From a virus, in IMG/VR virus record IMGVR_UViG_3300030390_001641, positions 1-39,336 of that record: a stretch of DNA of 39,336 bases. One strand, written 5' to 3'. Numbering within the stretch: position 1 is the first letter of the stretch; every line of letters begins with the position of its first letter. This document shows positions 3,293 to 39,336 of the stretch, piece by piece. Made by a program: the position numbers and the translations under genes. The notes below the pieces were generated by a model. That model made no database searches, was not told the DNA's origin, and saw nothing but the letters and a program-made list of their open reading frames with translations.

Positions 3293-3302
3293 GTAAATCA
3301 AG

Positions 3303-3327
3303 CGCCCTTAATGGAGGGCGTTTTTTT
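3303..3327 (+). terminator. Rho-independent terminator
   Basis: CGCCCT (3303-3308) pairs with AGGGCG (3315-3320) across a six-base loop, followed directly by seven T (3321-3327). It ends the 2512-3292 transcript and separates it from the gene at 3363. Confidence 0.9.
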
Positions 3328-3362
3328 GTACTTATTTACAACTAAAAGTAGGGGAAACAACA

Positions 3363-4118
3363 ATGCGTTATTTATCAGCTAATAAATCAAAGCCGGTTGG
3401 GTTGTCAAAAACTCGCGGCTTTATTATGTGGGAGGGCCCAAGCGTTTTGGACGGTGAGCCCATCGCAATAATTGCAACTATGAGCACTAGCAATAAAAAG
3501 ACCGGAGATATGGTGCAAACGTGGATCATTAGAACCGATATCAATCCGGTTGAAGCTTCCAAGGTCGGCGCGGATGTTTCTATCTGTGGCAACTGCCCAC
3601 ACCGACACTTTAACAAAGGCGCTTGTTATGTAAATATTGGTCAGGCACCTAATGCAGTTTATAAAGGTTATAAGCGCGGTATCTATCCGGCCTTTGATCT
3701 TAGCCAACATGCGGCGCACTTTGCCGGTAGAATGATAAGGTTAGGCGCTTATGGTGATCCGGCGGCGATTCCGTTTGATGTCGCATCATCGATTGCATTA
3801 TTGGGGTCGGGGCACACTGGGTACACTCACCAAGCCTCGCACAAAAACTTCGACAGTCGTTTTATGTCTTTGTGCATGGTTTCTGCCGATTCACCAAAAC
3901 AGGCGCTTAAATATCAGGCACAAGGCGCAAAAACTTTTCGTGTCGCGATGGTCGGTGATGCCCTTTTTGATTCAGAGATTGAATGCTTGTCGGATTCCAA
4001 GGGTATCCAGTGTATCGATTGCGGTTTGTGCGATGGTGTTTCCAAGAATATAGCTATCACGGTTCACGGGTCGCGATCCAATAATTTCAAATCTAATCTT
4101 ATAGCGGTCGGAGGGTAA
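3363..4118 (+). CDS. Cys-rich conserved phage protein of unknown function
   Basis: A 251-residue protein with eight Cys in a metal-site-like layout: C75-x2-C78, then C88, and near the end C217-x2-C220-x2-C223 (CIDCGLC). Between them lies [15 protein letters not shown] (residues 126-140) and GHTGYTHQ (150-157). I recognise this as a conserved phage and prophage family without known activity, possibly distantly related to the mycobacteriophage gp88-type Cys proteins; that link is weak. The start at 3363 has AGGGGA eight bases upstream. It lies between a terminator and the iteron-like repeats, which begin two bases after its stop, so a role linked to those repeats is worth testing. It has no membrane segment. 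Confidence 0.85.
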
Positions 4119-4119
4119 A

Positions 4120-4239
4120 AAAGTTCGGCAGCTTAAAGTTCGGCAGCTTAACTTTCTGCAGCTTAAAGTTCGGCAGCTTAACTTTCTGCAGCTTAACTTT
4201 CTGCAGCTTAACTTTCTGCAGCTTAACTTTCTGCAGCTT
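4120..4239. repeat. Eight perfect 15-bp tandem repeats of two types
   Basis: Exactly eight 15-bp units lie end to end. Type A is AAAGTTCGGCAGCTT and type B is AACTTTCTGCAGCTT, in the order A A B A B B B B. Each unit matches its type without a mismatch. The first six bases of A (AAAGTT) and of B (AACTTT) are reverse complements, while the second halves differ only at CGGCAG versus CTGCAG. The array begins two bases after the stop of the 3363 gene. It looks like an iteron set. It has no spacers, so it is not a CRISPR. Confidence 0.95.
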
Positions 4240-4244
4240 CATTT

Positions 4245-4340
4245 TGTCGCGGTGTCGCGGTCGGTTTGTCGCGGTTTATTTGTCGCGGTGTCGCGGTTGA
4301 TTTGTCGCGGTTGATTTGTCGCGGTGTCGCGGTGTCGCGG
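4245..4340. repeat. Nine copies of the 8-mer TGTCGCGG
   Basis: Perfect copies of TGTCGCGG start at 4245, 4253, 4267, 4281, 4289, 4303, 4317, 4325 and 4333. Spacing is either 8 bp (end to end) or 14 bp (a six-base spacer: TCGGTT, TTTATT, TTGATT or TTGATT). The array begins five bases after the 15-bp array and has no open frame of interest. It reads as a second class of protein-binding repeats. Confidence 0.95.
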
Positions 4341-4350
4341 TTAAATTAGT

Positions 4351-4513
4351 TTACCTTGACCACCTCAAACCCTTACCGGCTCTACGTTTCAGAGCATTTC
4401 AGCTCCAAGGTCAAGGTAAACTCAAATTCTCAATTCTTACCTTGACCACCTCAAACCCGCACCGGCTCTACGTTTCAGAGCATTTTAACAAAAAAGGTCA
4501 AGGGTCAAGGTAA
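4351..4513. repeat. Two 49-bp direct repeats, each ending in an inverted TTACCTTGACC/GGTCAAGGTAA pair
   Basis: A unit of about 49 bp starts at 4351 and again at 4437, differing at only two or three positions. Each opens with TTACCTTGACC and contains a small hairpin GCTCT-N7-AGAGC. The first unit closes with the perfect complement GGTCAAGGTAA at 4409-4419 and the second with GGTCAAGGTAA at 4503-4513, preceded by an overlapping extra GGTCAAGG at 4496. Each unit can fold as a long stem with an inner hairpin. A degraded third copy of the unit's start lies at 4717-4743. Confidence 0.9.
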
Positions 4514-4743
4514 AATCCAACAAAACCAGTAGGATTTAAAAACACTATTTTTAGGTTTTTTTTTCCTACTGACTTTATATCTATTTACCTTGACCATTAA
4601 AGAAAAAGAGTATAAATAAGTAATAAAGTATAATAAAATCAATAACTTAGGGTGGTCAAGGTTAACATTTTCTACCTTGACCTTTTGGCCTTTTACCTTG
4701 ACCTTTTGGCCTTTTTTTGACCACTTCAAAACCGCACCGCCTC
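4514..4743. repeat. AT-rich segment with further TACCTTGACC motifs (candidate unwinding element)
   Basis: Bases 4527-4660 are strongly A+T-rich with long A and T runs. They contain the inverted pair CAGTAGGA (4527-4534) and TCCTACTG (4564-4571). TTACCTTGACC recurs at 4585-4595, its complement GGTCAAGGTTAA at 4654-4665, and TACCTTGACC at 4673-4682 and 4694-4703, the last two inside a tandem repeat with TTTTGGCC. Together with the arrays to the left, this has the layout of a replication origin: iterons beside an AT-rich unwinding zone. From 4744 to 4909 I see only A+C-rich sequence without a gene or clear signal. Confidence 0.6.
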
Positions 4744-4909
4744 AAACCCTTAAATCATCCCCTGCTATCAATCCTAAAAACACAACGCAAAACAGACAAA
4801 CAAACAACATTACACACCTCACAAGTTAAAGTGCGTGCATTGTAATAAGTGGTAAGGACACAACGAAATGATATAAGGCTATGAGGGTTATGCGGTGAGC
4901 GATGAACGC

Positions 4910-5170
4910 TTAAAGGTATTCATCCATAAAGTCTATCTTCATTAATTCGACGGCACCTAGAACGGATACCACTGGTACGCCATCGCTATGCCAAGAGTTT
5001 GACACTTGCCCTTCACTGTCGATGGCAACGACCGCAAAGGCTTTAATGTTGTTATGCATGGAGTATTCGCAAAAGTCGGAGAGGGAATCAAGTAGAGCCT
5101 GTGAGGTTCGATCGCTCACAGGCTCTTGACCTTTACTCTTGACCTTCTCTGTTATATCGACGATTTTCAA
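4910..5170 (-). CDS. Small conserved phage protein of unknown function
   Basis: An 86-residue protein. The start is TTG at 5170, chosen because GAGGAG lies about six bases upstream; no ATG is better placed. The C-terminal half (AFVVAVDSEG-like AVVAIDSEGQVSNSW, then VLGAVELMK) is a pattern I have seen in small phage proteins of unknown role. It is the last gene of a five-gene minus-strand set and overlaps the previous gene by 38 bp. Its early coding sequence contains a perfect 12-bp inverted repeat and two CTTGACC motifs like those of the neighbouring repeat region, so expression may be controlled inside the gene. Confidence 0.75.
   Translation of the reverse strand: MKIVDITEKVKSKGQEPVSDRTSQALLDSLSDFCEYSMHNNIKAFAVVAIDSEGQVSNSWHSDGVPVVSVLGAVELMKIDFMDEYL
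5094..5126. repeat. Perfect 12-bp inverted repeat inside the 4910-5170 gene
   Basis: AGAGCCTGTGAG (5094-5105) and CTCACAGGCTCT (5115-5126) are exact complements around a nine-base loop that contains CGATCG. In the mRNA the hairpin starts 44 nt after the TTG start. No U-run follows, so it is not an ordinary terminator. Just upstream in the gene are CTTGACC sites at 5125-5131 and 5138-5144, 13 bp apart. Confidence 0.9.
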
Positions 5171-5279
5171 GTTCTCTCCTCAATACGAAGTCGCGCTGCT
5201 TATCTTGATACATCAAGAAAGCGCCGTGCAAGCAGACGGCTGTAAAAGTTAAGACTATTGCACCTAGTAACTGATCCAT
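5133..5279 (-). CDS. 48-residue single-pass membrane protein
   Basis: A tiny gene starting at ATG 5279 with a strong AGGAGG eight bases upstream. It codes for a short N-terminus, one hydrophobic segment (about residues 4-24, LLGAIVLTFTAVCLHGAFLMY) and a highly charged tail rich in Arg and Glu (RRELENRRYNREGQE). A longer frame from 5462 is open but overlaps the upstream gene and lacks a start signal. Function unknown. Small one-span phage proteins of this shape include superinfection-exclusion proteins and toxins, but nothing here proves either. Confidence 0.75.
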   Translation of the reverse strand: MDQLLGAIVLTFTAVCLHGAFLMYQDKQRDFVLRRELENRRYNREGQE

Positions 5280-5280
5280 T

Positions 5281-5481
5281 TTAGTACCTCCTCTGGTTAA
5301 GTATACCACTACTAGTTGTATCTCTGGACACACTGACGCCCGACATAATGCCAGCGATGCGCCCCTGAACGACTTCTCTGAGCTCACCGCGCTTGTAGCG
5401 GTACATTTGCAGCATCTCATCGTTATCACGTTGCTTGCGTTCGAGCTGATGGATAAGCTCATCTAGTTCAAATAAGTTCAT
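5281..5481 (-). CDS. Hypothetical coiled-coil protein
   Basis: A 66-residue protein starting MNLFELDELI at ATG 5481, whose A is shared with the stop of the previous gene (TGATG). Residues 1-40 are a charged amphipathic helix (LIHQLERKQRDNDEMLQMY) likely to form a coiled coil; the C-terminus is Ser/Thr-rich. The open frame extends upstream to 5517, but the overlapping stop-start favours 5481. No family is recognised. Coupled translation with its neighbours is likely. Confidence 0.7.
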   Translation of the reverse strand: MNLFELDELIHQLERKQRDNDEMLQMYRYKRGELREVVQGRIAGIMSGVSVSRDTTSSGILNQRRY

Positions 5482-6561: not shown

Positions 6562-6722
6562 CACTTCCACCTCGAATGCTTTTGAACGCCACCGCAGTCA
6601 GAGCACTTAACCTCAACGACATTGGGTCGAATGACGTAGGCGCATTGGCAATGTTTTGTGCCTTTAACGGCTGTTAATGCACGTTTGAATGCACATTTAA
6701 ATAGGTATTTCAATCTACGCAT
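6561..6722 (-). CDS. 53-residue basic zinc-finger-like protein
   Basis: A very small basic protein starting at ATG 6722, overlapping the end of the primase by eight bases. The N-terminus is a basic amphipathic helix (MRRLKYLFKCAFKRALTAV); the rest has CQC and CSDC pairs about 18 residues apart, a plausible zinc site. An open frame extends upstream to 6788 but lies fully in the primase gene, so 6722 is preferred. It is coupled to both neighbours by overlapping codons. Function unknown. Confidence 0.65.
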   Translation of the reverse strand: MRRLKYLFKCAFKRALTAVKGTKHCQCAYVIRPNVVEVKCSDCGGVQKHSRWK

Positions 6723-8985
6723 CACCTGTCTCCCAAATATCGTCGAATACGTCTTCTGTTTTGCTCTCATCAAACTCAGTCCAATCAACCTTTAAGCCGT
6801 TACTGGCATCAAAGATAAAGCGGGCTGACTCTAACGGCGCTATGTTTATAAACCGCACACGATTCTCACCCATGCGAGCGTATTTACCCTGCTCGAACAT
6901 ATTTGCGTAGCTGTTTAATTTGCGCCAAAACCGCACCTCTTTTATCGGAGACTCGTACTTGCTTCGAAGCGTTGAGCAGTAGATGTCATAAACCTCAGAC
7001 TTCTGTGACTCACTGCCAAACATGACGCAATTACCAGCGACCCTACTTTCTCGCAGCTCACCGCTCATCAAGCAGTTAAATAGCCATTGATCAACAGTAT
7101 CCAGCGCCTCCAACTTTTGGTCTTGCAGCGCATCGGTTTGAGGTACTAACCTCAGATTGGTAGTGGATAGGTCAAAGGTTTTAAGGTACTCCAACAATGC
7201 GCCCGCCCCGCCCGTGTTATACCAGCGGTCAAGTTCAGAGAAATATTTAGAGTCCTGCTTTCGTTCAATACCGACATCAAATACAGCAAAGCGACGCTCA
7301 TCCAGACTAGCCGGAACGACGAACTCCTCATTACTGGTGAATAAAATGCGCGTGTAGTTTGGCGCGGTGTACGCATCAACGCCTTTGCGCTCAATGGTGA
7401 TCTCCGGATTAGTCAGTAAGTCTTTCAGCGCACCCTCTGAGGCTTTTGCCCCAGCCCAGTACGCCTCATCGGCTTGTAGCAGTAACGTGTCTTCAAGATG
7501 TCGGTTAAAGTTACCCGTAACATGCTCTGCCCTACTGACTATTTTGTGATGAGCCTTGAATAGCCCACCTAACAGCTCACCGAACTTGGTCTTACCAGTG
7601 CCTTTTCGACCTCTAAGCACAAGGCCCACACCTATCTTGTCCATCGGATGCTGAACCATTTGAGCTGCCCAGCTAATGATGTAATTAGCGTGTATCTGAT
7701 TACCATCAGCCACTACAGTGGTGACAAAATCTAACCAAGGATCGACATCACCCTTGGCCTGAATAAAACTCCACCCCCGCCATAAGTTGTATCGATCAAG
7801 AATTTCCATATCAGGAGCAAAGGACAGTCCAGCCGCATAGGTTCTTCGCTCTGGATGCTCTAGCCACATATCAACAAGGTTTAAAAGCTTGGGCTTCTCA
7901 TCGCCTGACAAGACGCGGCAGTTCATGTGTTCTTTCTTTAAATCTTCGAGCTTGTACAGGACAATACTGCCCTTACTGACATCCTCGCGGATAACTCGCG
8001 CCGAGCCTTCGACATGGACAAATGCCCACTCTTTAAGCATTCGGGGCAGTCGCTCTTCAATCACCTTCTCAGAGACAACGGCCTTTTCCATCTGCTTGAC
8101 TGACGCCATCGTTACTGGGGCTCGACCTTTGCTGTCGAATGTCGCGTATCGACGCTCACACTCACCGTCGCGGTGCTTACTACTGTCCGATGACCACTCG
8201 TCCCAGATCATCCAACCAGTGTCAGTGGCATCGAAGTGATGGTGCAGCGCCATGCCAACCTTCACCCAATCATCATGGTGGGCGTCGGGATCAACACTGT
8301 TAAGCAGCTCCTTTACGCCCTCCTCATCCACATCCATTTTAGGTTTGAACATCGTGATGTCATCGACGTCTATATCGACAGTCGATACACCCTTCCGAGC
8401 AAGCTCCCAGTTTGTTTCATTGCTAGCGCATTGTTCAAAATAAGAAACAAAAGCCTCTGCCTTCTCTCTAGTCATTAAAGGTAGAGAGTTTTGTGCGTGA
8501 TCGGCAATGCCACCGCGAGTCGCGTTCCAGCGGTAAGGCTTCTGCGTTGTCGGGTGCATTCCATAGGCAACAAACTGCTGGCCGTCGGCTAACACCTCAA
8601 CGGCGTGAGTGGTGCTCATCGCATCCTCATACTCACAGCTTCTAATCTTCTTAAATGTTTTCTCAACCCTATAAGGTAGGATGCACTTAGGAAAATTACC
8701 GTACCGGACAGGTGATGTGCCGACATTTTCCTCCAGCCACATCACTAGTTTTTTGTTTAGATTCTTGTCGTAACAGTCGATATCAACCGCTATCGTGTTC
8801 CGGCATAAGACGCCAACACCGCCATCTTTATGGCCGTTAGACAGCCACGCATCGACATCCTCATGGGTTGATCTGATGTCCTGCCAACCGGAGAGCATCG
8901 GTGCCTTTTTGTTCTTCATAATCGGCACAATTTCGTAGCCTTGATCGACTAACTTGTGCCCGAATTCTTGTAAAAACCCCATCAT
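6715..8985 (-). CDS. Primase-helicase (PrimPol plus superfamily 3 helicase)
   Basis: A 756-residue replication protein. Residues 1-160 form an archaeo-eukaryotic-type primase/polymerase domain with AVDIDCYD (D68, D70) and GQQFVAYGMHP (H144). Residues about 215-290 resemble the PriCT-2 linker domain (DDWVKVGMALHHH, WDEWS). The C-terminal half is an SF3/D5-like helicase: Walker A GRKGTGKT (459-466), Walker B LLLQADEAY (D506, E507), sensor FTSNEE (N552) and the arginines of LDERRFAVFD (564-565). It should prime and unwind the phage origin. Start ATG 8985 (or 8982) follows AAGGA. It faces the DNA polymerase operon from the other side of a divergent promoter region. Confidence 0.93.
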   Translation of the reverse strand: MMGFLQEFGHKLVDQGYEIVPIMKNKKAPMLSGWQDIRSTHEDVDAWLSNGHKDGGVGVLCRNTIAVDIDCYDKNLNKKLVMWLEENVGTSPVRYGNFPKCILPYRVEKTFKKIRSCEYEDAMSTTHAVEVLADGQQFVAYGMHPTTQKPYRWNATRGGIADHAQNSLPLMTREKAEAFVSYFEQCASNETNWELARKGVSTVDIDVDDITMFKPKMDVDEEGVKELLNSVDPDAHHDDWVKVGMALHHHFDATDTGWMIWDEWSSDSSKHRDGECERRYATFDSKGRAPVTMASVKQMEKAVVSEKVIEERLPRMLKEWAFVHVEGSARVIREDVSKGSIVLYKLEDLKKEHMNCRVLSGDEKPKLLNLVDMWLEHPERRTYAAGLSFAPDMEILDRYNLWRGWSFIQAKGDVDPWLDFVTTVVADGNQIHANYIISWAAQMVQHPMDKIGVGLVLRGRKGTGKTKFGELLGGLFKAHHKIVSRAEHVTGNFNRHLEDTLLLQADEAYWAGAKASEGALKDLLTNPEITIERKGVDAYTAPNYTRILFTSNEEFVVPASLDERRFAVFDVGIERKQDSKYFSELDRWYNTGGAGALLEYLKTFDLSTTNLRLVPQTDALQDQKLEALDTVDQWLFNCLMSGELRESRVAGNCVMFGSESQKSEVYDIYCSTLRSKYESPIKEVRFWRKLNSYANMFEQGKYARMGENRVRFINIAPLESARFIFDASNGLKVDWTEFDESKTEDVFDDIWETGDA

Positions 8986-9147: not shown

Positions 9148-9403
9148 ACACAGGCTCCTTTCTGTTGAAGTCTTCAACGATGTCTGGGCATAAGTCTTTC
9201 CAGCTCACCTTACCGGCTGTAAGCAGTTCCATTTGCAATGCGCGGTGTGCTGGAATCAACCCAGATACCCGCCACTTGCTAAGAGCTTGCTTAGTAACAT
9301 CTAGCGTTCTCGCTAAAGAACTGTCGTTTTTTAAACTTGAGTGCACCACCACATTATTCAGTGCTGACTGAACGATTGGTGCGTGTGGACTGATATGTAG
9401 CAT
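9131..9403 (-). CDS. Cro/CII-like helix-turn-helix regulator
   Basis: A 90-residue DNA-binding protein. Residues about 29-52 form a helix-turn-helix (LARTLDVTKQALSKWRVSG), followed by PAHRALQMELLTAGKVSWKDL, the typical C-terminus of Cro/YdaS-like phage regulators. The start ATG 9403 has AGGAG nine bases upstream. It is the first gene of the minus-strand early operon and lies back to back with the plus-strand replication operon, the usual place for a Cro or CII protein. It may bind in the 9404-9552 region, which holds GTTGAC half-sites. Confidence 0.8.
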   Translation of the reverse strand: MLHISPHAPIVQSALNNVVVHSSLKNDSSLARTLDVTKQALSKWRVSGLIPAHRALQMELLTAGKVSWKDLCPDIVEDFNRKEPVYAINR

Positions 9404-9454
9404 TGCATGAATCTCCTTAGTTACAACTAATTGATGTATTTACCAAAAACAAGG

Positions 9455-9483
9455 TTGACACTCTAGTTGACCACCATTACTAT
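9455..9483 (+). promoter_or_regulatory. Promoter of the plus-strand replication operon
   Basis: TTGACA (9455-9460) and TACTAT (9478-9483) are 17 bp apart. The region has GTTGAC half-sites at 9455 and 9467 and GTCAAC at 9485, plus an imperfect palindrome CAACTAATTGATG at 9424-9436, all related to the operator half CAAC/GTTG. No full CAAC-N5-GTTG copy is seen here. The minus-strand promoter for the Cro-like gene must overlap this region, but no clear -10 was found. Confidence 0.75.
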
Positions 9484-9552
9484 TGTCAACAACTTTTACG
9501 TGGGTTAAAAAAAATATTAAGTTTGAATAAATAGAAATAGGGAAATGAATAG

Positions 9553-10686
9553 ATGGCAGCACACGCAATATTAAGCGCAAGCGGGTCAAGCAAATGGATG
9601 AATTGCTCCGGGAGTATTTTAGCTGAGAGCGGAATGCCTAAAGACGAGGGTTCTGATTTTGCGAGAGAAGGCACAGCCGCCCATGAACTTGCAGAGATGT
9701 GCTTAAACAGTCAGCGACCACCGGAGTCTTATATAGGTGTAGAGGTTGAGGGCTGGATTGTTGATGAAGAGATGGCAGAGCATGTCTCGACCTATGTTGA
9801 TTACTGCAACACGCACACCGGCAAAAAATATTACGAGCTTCGGGTCGATTATTCCCGTTGGGCGCATGGCGGTTTTGGAACCGCTGATTGTGTTGCGGTT
9901 GATGATGGCGTTCTTAACATTATTGATCTGAAGTACGGCACAGGCATCAAAGTGTCTGCACAAAAAAACTCACAGCTCATGTTGTACGGTCTTGGCGCTC
10001 TAGAAATGTTTGGCGACGAAGTTGATGTCGTAACCATGACGATCGTTCAAACCCGTCTTGATCACATAGACACCTACTCTGTTAGGGCAAAAGACTTGTT
10101 GAAGTGGGCCGAGGATGTCGTGCGCCCCGCCGCCATCGCAACAATGAGCATTGATCCTGAATTTAATCCATCAGTAACAGCGTGCCGCTGGTGCAGAGCC
10201 AAGCCGGTATGTCGAGCCCTAGCGAAACACAACTACAACCTAACTCTATCTAACTTTGACAATCTCGAAGAGCCTCTACTGGTGCAAGTTCCGCACACCC
10301 TTACCCCCGATGAGATATCTAAGCTCGTTCCGAAAATGGATGCGCTTATAGGTTGGGCGCGAGGTGTTCAACAGCACGCACAAAAGATTCTCTTTGATGG
10401 TGGCATCTTGGACGGCTACAAGCTCGTACAGGGTCGATCTCAGCGCAAGTGGGTCAATGATAAAGACGCAGAAACACACCTAATTAAGTTACTGGGCGAC
10501 GAATCGCGTAGTAGCAAACTCATTTCGCCAGCTCAAGCAGAGAAATTGCTTGGGAAAGCGAGAGCCGCAGAGGTTACCGAACTCTGCTTTAAACCCCAAG
10601 GCAAACCAAGTCTTGCGCCGGAGAGTGACCCTCGACCAGCGATTAAGCCCGACGTTGCCACATACTTTTCAGACATAAAGGAATAA
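9553..10686 (+). CDS. DUF2800 family nuclease (Cas4/AddB-like)
   Basis: A 377-residue PD-(D/E)XK nuclease of the DUF2800 type. It has GTAAHELAE (H44), FGTADCVAVD (D112), IIDLKYGTG (D125, K127) and the QLMLYGLG motif (Q141, Y145). One Cys near the start (C18) and three after the nuclease core (C211, C214, C220) match the four-Cys iron-sulfur arrangement of Cas4 and AddB nucleases. It probably processes DNA ends during phage recombination or replication, together with the DUF2815 protein that follows after four bases. First gene of the replication operon. Confidence 0.9.
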   Translation: MAAHAILSASGSSKWMNCSGSILAESGMPKDEGSDFAREGTAAHELAEMCLNSQRPPESYIGVEVEGWIVDEEMAEHVSTYVDYCNTHTGKKYYELRVDYSRWAHGGFGTADCVAVDDGVLNIIDLKYGTGIKVSAQKNSQLMLYGLGALEMFGDEVDVVTMTIVQTRLDHIDTYSVRAKDLLKWAEDVVRPAAIATMSIDPEFNPSVTACRWCRAKPVCRALAKHNYNLTLSNFDNLEEPLLVQVPHTLTPDEISKLVPKMDALIGWARGVQQHAQKILFDGGILDGYKLVQGRSQRKWVNDKDAETHLIKLLGDESRSSKLISPAQAEKLLGKARAAEVTELCFKPQGKPSLAPESDPRPAIKPDVATYFSDIKE

Positions 10687-37428: not shown

Positions 37429-39336
37429 TTATCCTATGCTCACGTTTCTGTTTTGAACTCTTTCCAAAGCCAGTTCCTTCTCACTCATCTCCATGTCGTG
37501 GTTTTGCTTCTCCACATCCATCAGTAGTCGGCTGTCTTTCTCTTCCTCAACATGCTCTTGCTTTTGAGTGTCCATAACCATCTTGTGTTGTTCTCTCATA
37601 ATGTCTAGCTCAAGCTGCCCTTCCATAACACTGACTTGTCTTGACGTAATATCCGCATTGAACTCAAGCTGTTGCTGCTGTTTTAACCCCTCTTCCTGCT
37701 GCGATTGCTGCTGCTGTTGCTGCATCTGCTGGAATTCAGGACTGTTTGGATTGAACAAGAACATGTCCGTTGATTTAATGTTCAGCAGCTCAAAGGCTCT
37801 ACTGAGCATTGCGTGACGCTGTTGCGTGCCATACATGCCACCCAGAGATGGGTCTTGCGGGTTCATCGTAAATTGCTGATCTAAACTCAGCAGTAACTGA
37901 GCCTCTTGCGCTTGCTCTTCAGGTGTTAACGCAACCGCCACAGACATCTCAGTGCGATCACCTAAGAATTGCGGATTAATAGGAACAAACTGACCGTCTA
38001 GCTGAACCATCTTTTCTTGCTTCTCATTTTCTAAAGCAAGCTTGTAAAGATCGAACATCAACGGCTTTAAGAAGTTCTCTGCCAGATTTCTGCACATGAC
38101 CATGATTCGACGGTTGCTGGCATTCATAAACTGAGTGATTAAGTCAGAGCTGTTCTGCTTACTTACAACCGTTGAGTCCATACCTCTCGCCATGCGGCTC
38201 ATACCACTACGCGCTTCCTTCTCAACCTCTAAGGCTTCCATCGCCTGAAACACACCGCCCGATAAACTTGGCATGGGCATAGGGCGCACGACAGATTCAG
38301 GGTTTGGCGAATTCACATCAATAACAGCGCCGACCCGATTATCAATCAAATCCCTGGGATTCTTAACCAGCGACAAGTTCGCCACAAATCGTGAGGTGTT
38401 AGTCATAAAGGTGTGATCTACCACGCCACGCTTCAAGCTAGACTGCGTTTTCTGGATATCACATAACACATCGGCAAGGCTCATACCGTAAAAGCGGTGA
38501 GGTAAAGGGAATGGCGTAAAGTATCGGAACGGCTTCTCGCTCACCATCTCAACATCAAGTAAGGTTGTGCGGCTGTGAAGCACCTTTAAATAGACACACT
38601 TCTTTAGGTCAGAGCGATACTTTTTGAGGTACGACTCATAAATAGTGACGTACTCTCTATCGTTGTCAGACTCAAACCCGTCATCGCTTCCAAACTCATC
38701 CACCGAGTCACGCGCTATTCTGCCCTCATCGTTTAGATTATCTTCGCTTAACTTCTCAACAATCTCAGGGTCATACCCCTCACTTAACAGCTCACCGCGT
38801 GTGCGGCTTGTGCGGTGTGAGCAAAAGTCAGCATCATCCTCACCAGTGGCACGCGGTGTGATTAAAAAGTCTTCGGGCGGTATCGACTCGATGCACACCT
38901 TTGACTTGTCAATCTTCCGCGCAATCTCACCGCTGTACATGACCTGTTGAATGGCAATAGGCTGTCCGGTTTGTGGGTCTTGCACTTGAGCCATAACAGC
39001 CTCTTCCGCAATCTCCATGATCGTCACAGCAGGATCGGATGCCAGCATAGAAAAACTAGCCTCATCCAAACCCTCAAACGTCTCTTCCTCATACTCGTAA
39101 TAGTTTTTATAGTACCGCTTAACTATTCCAGTTTTAGCTACCAGCGCATCGTGAATCACATCGTGGAGAATTTTTGAGCCTTTGTTCTCTCTATAGAAGA
39201 TGTAGTTAGTCAGTGCGGTTGCCATCTTTGCTGGCACAAAATCCTCTGAGGTTTGCGGATCAAACCGACACACGTTGCGGTCAGCGGTGAACGTCTCCAT
39301 GATCATCGCTTTCACACTTTCCACGGCATCAAAAAC
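37429..39336 (-). CDS. Portal protein, C-terminal part (N-terminus at 1-306)
   Basis: The main part of the 696-residue portal; the gene enters from the right edge with no start inside the window (the first in-window Met, at 39324, is internal). The core has IPPEDFLITPRATGEDDADF, the segment FRYFTPFPLPHRFYGMSLAD and the clip and wing region GMSRMARGMDSTVV. The C-terminal barrel is a long helix rich in Gln (QQMQQQQQQSQQEEGLKQ), typical of P22-like portals. It overlaps the large terminase by 17 bp at the other side of the circular join. Confidence 0.93.
   Translation of the reverse strand, partial: VFDAVESVKAMIMETFTADRNVCRFDPQTSEDFVPAKMATALTNYIFYRENKGSKILHDVIHDALVAKTGIVKRYYKNYYEYEEETFEGLDEASFSMLASDPAVTIMEIAEEAVMAQVQDPQTGQPIAIQQVMYSGEIARKIDKSKVCIESIPPEDFLITPRATGEDDADFCSHRTSRTRGELLSEGYDPEIVEKLSEDNLNDEGRIARDSVDEFGSDDGFESDNDREYVTIYESYLKKYRSDLKKCVYLKVLHSRTTLLDVEMVSEKPFRYFTPFPLPHRFYGMSLADVLCDIQKTQSSLKRGVVDHTFMTNTSRFVANLSLVKNPRDLIDNRVGAVIDVNSPNPESVVRPMPMPSLSGGVFQAMEALEVEKEARSGMSRMARGMDSTVVSKQNSSDLITQFMNASNRRIMVMCRNLAENFLKPLMFDLYKLALENEKQEKMVQLDGQFVPINPQFLGDRTEMSVAVALTPEEQAQEAQLLLSLDQQFTMNPQDPSLGGMYGTQQRHAMLSRAFELLNIKSTDMFLFNPNSPEFQQMQQQQQQSQQEEGLKQQQQLEFNADITSRQVSVMEGQLELDIMREQHKMVMDTQKQEHVEEEKDSRLLMDVEKQNHDMEMSEKELALERVQNRNVSIG
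39214..39336. repeat. Terminal overlap copy 2 (matches 1-123)
   Basis: The right end repeats the left end over 123 bp: the first 99 bases are identical and the last 24 have six synonymous third-position differences in the portal frame. The coordinate offset is 39213. It closes the circle inside the portal gene. Confidence 0.9.

Follow-up and report, generated by a model that had tools for sequence, protein, structure and literature searches.

A probable iteron origin in a temperate phage, with a repeat word that covaries with the winged helix of the phage primase-helicase

Introduction

Where does a phage known from its sequence alone begin to replicate, and which of its proteins reads the site? 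The question is raised by the virus record IMGVR_UViG_3300030390_001641 (39,336 bases; this whole stretch is called the window below), in which the interval 4119-4909, between the 3′ ends of the convergent genes p251 and p86, holds no listed gene of note and three repeat arrays. An earlier note had read the region as an origin served by the PrimPol-SF3 protein of the phage. Comparison with related phages strongly supports this for array 3 only; arrays 1 and 2 fail the refuting test that the note itself had set.

Results

Gene content and completeness of the window

According to Pfam and PHROG matches, the window encodes terminase subunits, an integrase, regulators, a DUF2800 exonuclease and an SNF2-type helicase, together with a PolA-type polymerase, a Gp2.5-like single-stranded DNA-binding protein and a 756-aa Prim-Pol/PriCT-2/DUF5906 primase-helicase. 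Several HTH regulators are present, and the phage is temperate. Its two ends (1-123 and 39214-39336) are alike at 117 of 123 bases, with the mismatches near the inner end and at about every third base, the pattern that coding sequence varying between strains would give; the record probably represents an almost complete genome that was assembled as a circle. An Rfam search gave no match and a tRNA search found none. Related loci in genomes were compared as a guide to the host; the best one is 59% identical, comes from the MAG of an uncultured proteobacterium and did not lead to a host assignment. When phages were searched at the nucleotide level with 3300-5300, the matches were short and confined to the p251 gene, where similarity was seen to one Yersinia phage and two Ruegeria pomeroyi phages. 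GC skew, a check suggested in the earlier note, was computed and then dropped as an origin marker, since it follows gene orientation here and is uninformative. Between array 3 and p86, a stretch that is well conserved contains a 22-codon open reading frame (4742-4810, minus strand) that reads MLFVCLFCVVFLGLIAGDDLRV and possibly encodes a small membrane peptide.

Array 3 consists of sites on both strands around AT-rich DNA

The word CCTTGACC occurs in nine exact copies within 4341-4730 (five on the plus and four on the minus strand, spanning 4354-4703) and is absent from the rest of the 39 kb; Markov-resampled versions of 4341-4730 contain a mean of 0.013 copies. The longer form TTACCTTGACC accounts for six of the sites, the remaining ones being shorter or degenerate (Table 1). 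GC content falls to 21-29% (100-bp windows) at about 4501-4650, inside the array and with sites on both sides. The AT-rich zone had previously been thought to begin where the last repeat unit ends; the DNA past that unit is 36-43% GC. About 2 kb and several small genes separate array 3 from the 3′ end of the primase gene.

Table 1. Positions of the genes, repeat arrays and individual sites in the window
Feature	Position	Strand	Basis or comment
p251	3363-4118	+	251 aa; PHROG 2554, function unassigned
Array 1	4124..4239	+	about 7.7 units of 15 bp, imperfect, with the core GCAGCTT; accessory, dispensable in the origin model
Array 2	4245..4340	+	nine exact TGTCGCGG, starts 8 or 14 bp apart; accessory
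Array 3	4348..4724	both	proposed replication origin, iterons around AT-rich DNA
Iteron TTACCTTGACC	4351..4361	+	
Iteron, GGTCAAGGTAA on the plus strand	4409..4419	-	
Iteron TTACCTTGACC	4437..4447	+	
Iteron core, GGTCAAGG on the plus strand	4496..4503	-	
Iteron, GGTCAAGGTAA on the plus strand	4503..4513	-	
AT-rich segment between the site sets	4514..4584		candidate melting region; GC minimum
Iteron TTACCTTGACC, inside the AT-rich zone	4585..4595	+	
Second AT-rich segment	4596..4653		
Iteron core, GGTCAAGG on the plus strand	4654..4661	-	
Iteron ACCTTGACC	4674..4682	+	
Iteron TTACCTTGACC	4693..4703	+	
Degenerate site TTGACC	4717..4722	+	intact TATCCTTGACC at the same place in L005 and L007
p86	4910-5170	-	converges with p251
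Prim-Pol/PriCT-2/DUF5906 primase-helicase, proposed initiator	6715..8985	-	Pfam/PHROG matches
C-terminal winged helix, residues ~645-735, proposed iteron reader	6781..7053	-	AF2, Foldseek, covariation

Counterparts of array 3 lie between primase and terminase in related phages

A search with the primase yielded 73 viral contigs, and further searches added more. Sequence reaching 3.5 kb or more past the primase is available for 35 relatives, and in 29 of these the interval from primase to terminase holds an array with sites on both strands (score ≥200; the contigs are fragments related to each other, and some are near-duplicates), compared with a highest score of 81 in shuffled sequence and 112 in the in-genome control (primase plus upstream). 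The arrays of L041, L048, L103 and L140 are weak, and none was found at this sensitivity in L130 and L142. The word is lineage-specific: CCTTGACC, CCTTTGACC, CCCGTGCG, CCTTGTACG/CCCCGTACG, CCTTGAACG/CCTGAACG, CCTGTGCG/A, CCTGTGAG, ACCCTGAGT or CCTGACACT. In L156 (~9400-10100) the array word is AGGGTGTGTAA, whereas words of other lineages start with CC.

Arrays were also found in cultured phages. The Burkholderia phages AH2 and BcepNazgul, with primases about 49% identical, have the word AGGTCCGAA in common directly 3′ of the primase gene, and the Achromobacter phages phiAxp-2 and AXY1, which belong to one genus, carry different words in arrays just 3′ of it. Other arrays are present in AhaSv, Suzuki and EliS-R16L and a weaker one in JS26; near the primase of phiVC8, K247, RDJL Phi 2 and BL4 no comparable array was found.

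The repeat word covaries with the winged helix of the primase-helicase

The N-terminus of the primase has a Prim-Pol (AEP) fold, like pRN1 ORF904 and NrS-1. The AF2 model of the whole primase had a low-confidence SF3 core, so the C-terminal domain was modeled alone; the resulting model, which rests on 47 sequences, is a winged helix (pLDDT 83). Its best Foldseek match is Cdc6/Orc1 on origin DNA (E 0.004, a fold-level likeness only). No P4 structure is among the 50 fold matches listed, and a sequence search of the PDB with the C-terminal profile gave nothing significant, a P4 structure included. RepA_N is not among the Pfam or PHROG matches of the primase.

The window primase and those of L012, L013 and L015 are 81-100% identical per 50-column block across most of the protein (mostly >90%), fall to 51-61% at alignment columns 650-750 and are nearly identical again afterwards; the words of these three loci (CCCGTGCG; CCTTGTACG/CCCCGTACG) differ from that of the window. 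L006-L011, which have the window word, are 79-80% identical to the window at columns 150-250 and 91-95% in the C-terminal columns. In L050, with a primase 64% identical overall, the wing motif GKYxRxGExR and the CCTT(T)GACC word are both shared. Across 31 loci, a partial Mantel test, which uses no tree and here includes many related loci, gave r = 0.53 (p = 0.0002) for word similarity against winged-helix identity given residues 1-600, and -0.24 for the reverse, with the peak signal at residues 666-746.

Two pairs narrow the difference to a few residues. L013 and L015, whose words differ, have primases separated by 11 differences; the winged helix holds four of these (R688K, N692G, T701C and H702N). 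Between L022 and L019 the framework is largely kept and all 12 origin sites are changed, the primase changes including N692M, T694G, A701T and Y702Q. Both switches thus hit residues 692 and 701/702. L025 and L022 differ at sixteen positions in the whole protein, twelve of them past residue 600, as though the reading domain had been exchanged here too; a winged helix of this kind predicts a GTGCG-type word in the L025 origin, beyond the coverage of its contig.

Among the other shared genes open to this test, none covaries with the word. The genes p86, p93 and p109 run against it, because the window resembles L012/L015 in them more than it resembles L007; two regulators at 15.2-16.0 kb are comparable only in L008/L009, a number of relatives too small to reject them formally as readers.

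Arrays 1 and 2 accompany the p251 gene

The three arrays described in the earlier note are real, although the comparisons do not support them as one origin, and the composition given for them holds in part. The nine 8-mers of array 2 are perfect, as had been stated. The eight 15-mers of array 1, also called perfect, match the consensus TTCTGCAGCTTAACT exactly in three units and vary in the rest, GCAGCTT being the sole sequence common to all eight. L005, L007 and L011 have fewer units of array 1 than the window, and the copy number of array 2 also differs among relatives. The two arrays accompany p251, in differing copy number, in L005, L007-L009, L011, L064, L076, L078 and L085; the L006 contig begins inside array 1. 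Array 2 lies beside a p94 homologue in L055/L035. These occurrences are best read as an accessory repeat tract that arrives with the p251 gene cassette and is not a constant part of the origin.

Terminator-like matches in array 2 were discarded as products of its own repeats. Array 2 was also set aside as a phage-wide element: tracts of TGTCGGGG occur in the apparently unrelated phages L238-L242 as well and are uninformative. Long perfect tandem tracts of TGTCGGGG were seen at ~9500-9700 of L241 and ~890-960 of L242, contigs found only through that pattern. On the reverse complement of L019 (~80-320), tandem GCGGCTATCGCTCTG-like and TGTCGGGG arrays lie near the origin array, in the style of arrays 1 and 2 with other words.

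Alternative explanations of the arrays

All three arrays could act jointly as the origin, and in the window phage, L005-L009 and L011 they are indeed contiguous. When related phages were searched for them, however, the primase and a counterpart of array 3 were found to be kept in L012, L013 and L015, while arrays 1 and 2 as well as p251 are missing from L012 and L015, in which the whole region is covered; L013 has the same downstream structure. Moreover, array 2 is separated from the origin array in L079 and L081, and the copy numbers of arrays 1 and 2 vary freely. A joint origin is unsupported because L012 and L015 do without the two arrays, and we regard it as very unlikely. We hold a similarly low opinion of an origin in which the words would be mere stem sequences of a functional DNA stem-loop, such as has been put forward for AEP-SF3-winged-helix proteins of the pRN1 type. 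The pRN1 study does propose stem-loops, not iterons, for this protein class (PMC4234260), and array 3 folds strongly as single-stranded DNA (z -7.3), but inverted copies of any one word would fold in this way. Nor would a pure stem require the predicted DNA-reading protein domain that the word follows; directly oriented sites are also conserved, and in the 215 bases immediately 3′ of the primase folding is unremarkable (z -0.23).

Two further explanations assign array 3 to another reader. If array 3 were a cos or pac packaging site recognized by the small terminase, TerS and the word would be expected to covary. Cos sites often hold repeated terminase sites, the array is near terS in many relatives, and the cos end of BcepNazgul lies within a few hundred bases of the array. 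The expected covariation is absent, however: L078 and L015 have 98% identical TerS proteins and different words, the window and L078 have 72% identical TerS proteins and the same word, and in 23 loci TerS explains nothing given the winged helix (partial r -0.16 versus 0.59). About 11 kb separate terS and the array in AH2. The window and L012/L015 have TerL proteins with 98% identity despite their different words, and both terminase subunits were rejected as readers; a packaging site is very improbable. We give equally little credence to a regulatory reading in which a phage repressor would use array 3 as its operators or as a silencer, in the manner of stoperators. Mycobacteriophages are known to have asymmetric repressor sites in multiple copies, and the window phage is temperate with several HTH regulators, but the Cro-like HTH regulator adjoining the primase, which was rejected as the reader, is 100% identical in the window and L012/L013 while the words differ, and the sites are limited to one 380-bp tract between convergent genes.

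Discussion

Taken together, the comparisons suggest, with a probability that we put at roughly 0.87, that array 3 is the replication origin, read and opened by the phage's own primase-helicase, and that arrays 1 and 2 are accessory. We infer direct binding, melting, initiation and a division of labour at array 3. The Prim-Pol/SF3-type primase-helicase would bind the CCTTGACC iterons through its C-terminal winged helix, assemble at the two site sets and be loaded in the form of helicase rings onto the intervening AT-rich DNA. The rings would melt this DNA, after which the primase-helicase would prime synthesis, to be continued by the phage's own PolA-type polymerase and Gp2.5-like single-stranded DNA-binding protein.

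For a large group of AEP-primase phages, the chances seem evenly balanced that origin and reader form a rapidly switching key-and-lock module, in which a few recognition-helix and wing residues (around 688, 692, 694, 701 and 702) would set the word and all sites would change in concert. By analogy with the proposal for Odn and PLE origins, such switching may be driven by competition among co-infecting phages, satellites or origin-targeting nucleases. Most phages known from sequence alone lack an identified origin; in this case, comparison by itself indicates an origin, its reader and the specificity residues. Since natural initiator pairs exist with four differences in the reading domain and different words, the protein-DNA code of a Prim-Pol initiator is directly testable.

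The literature searched, which covers few subscription journals, contained no description of such an origin for these phages. In replication-gene order, primase architecture and two-strand repeats, the window resembles the Casjensviridae-type phages AH2, BcepNazgul, phiAxp-2 and AXY1, which are cultured, have genomes of 57-62 kb and carry the repeats directly 3′ of the primase; the primases of AH2 and the window are only about 30% identical. PICI origins have two iteron sets around an AT-rich region, a layout reported as common to no other bacterial replicon (PMC6092414), which array 3 would extend to tailed phages. Like array 3, the PICI/SaPI systems (SaPI Rep; EcCICFT073 pri-rep-ori) combine this layout with element-specific iterons, and SaPI Rep is described as an initiator helicase that reads its iterons by a C-terminal domain (PMC7581432, citing Ubeda 2007). 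SaPI and PICI origins are, however, directly 3′ of rep, as the AH2 array is adjacent to its primase gene, whereas the array of the window is about 2 kb away; moreover, the window is not a satellite but comes from a temperate tailed phage that encodes a terminase and a polymerase of its own, and its initiator, in contrast to SaPI Rep, fuses an AEP Prim-Pol to a DUF5906-type helicase.

In the PLE of V. cholerae (RepA_N/ori, with the anti-origin nuclease Odn), the origin repeats change together with the DNA-binding domain as one exchangeable unit, and the remainder of the initiator stays conserved (PMC8263062). The window system shares this covariation, but the PLE domain is the N-terminal RepA_N of an unrelated initiator and not the C-terminal winged helix of a primase-helicase, and a likely cause of switching is known for PLE and none for the window phages. 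P4 alpha unites primase, helicase and winged helix in one protein that binds origin repeats (ori/crr), by the summary in PMC4234260; the window initiator shares the winged helix as a predicted fold, but its primase is an AEP Prim-Pol and that of P4 alpha is of the TOPRIM type. The Prim-Pol fold is shared with pRN1 ORF904 and NrS-1. ORF904 combines this fold with an SF3 helicase and, at its C-terminus, a winged helix, and the origin of pRN1 is reported to be a stem-loop, not iterons (PMC4234260); such an origin, a large stem-loop 3′ of the replication gene, contrasts with the window, where iterons are present and that position has no unusual fold. Array 3 argues against the general use of stem-loops over iterons by AEP-SF3-winged-helix initiators, as put forward in PMC4234260. 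The window system misses at least one defining feature of each known system, being neither adjacent to its initiator gene nor a satellite, and having neither a TOPRIM primase nor RepA_N; array 3 is best read, by analogy, as an iteron origin with a PICI-like layout that would be read as by P4 alpha or SaPI Rep.
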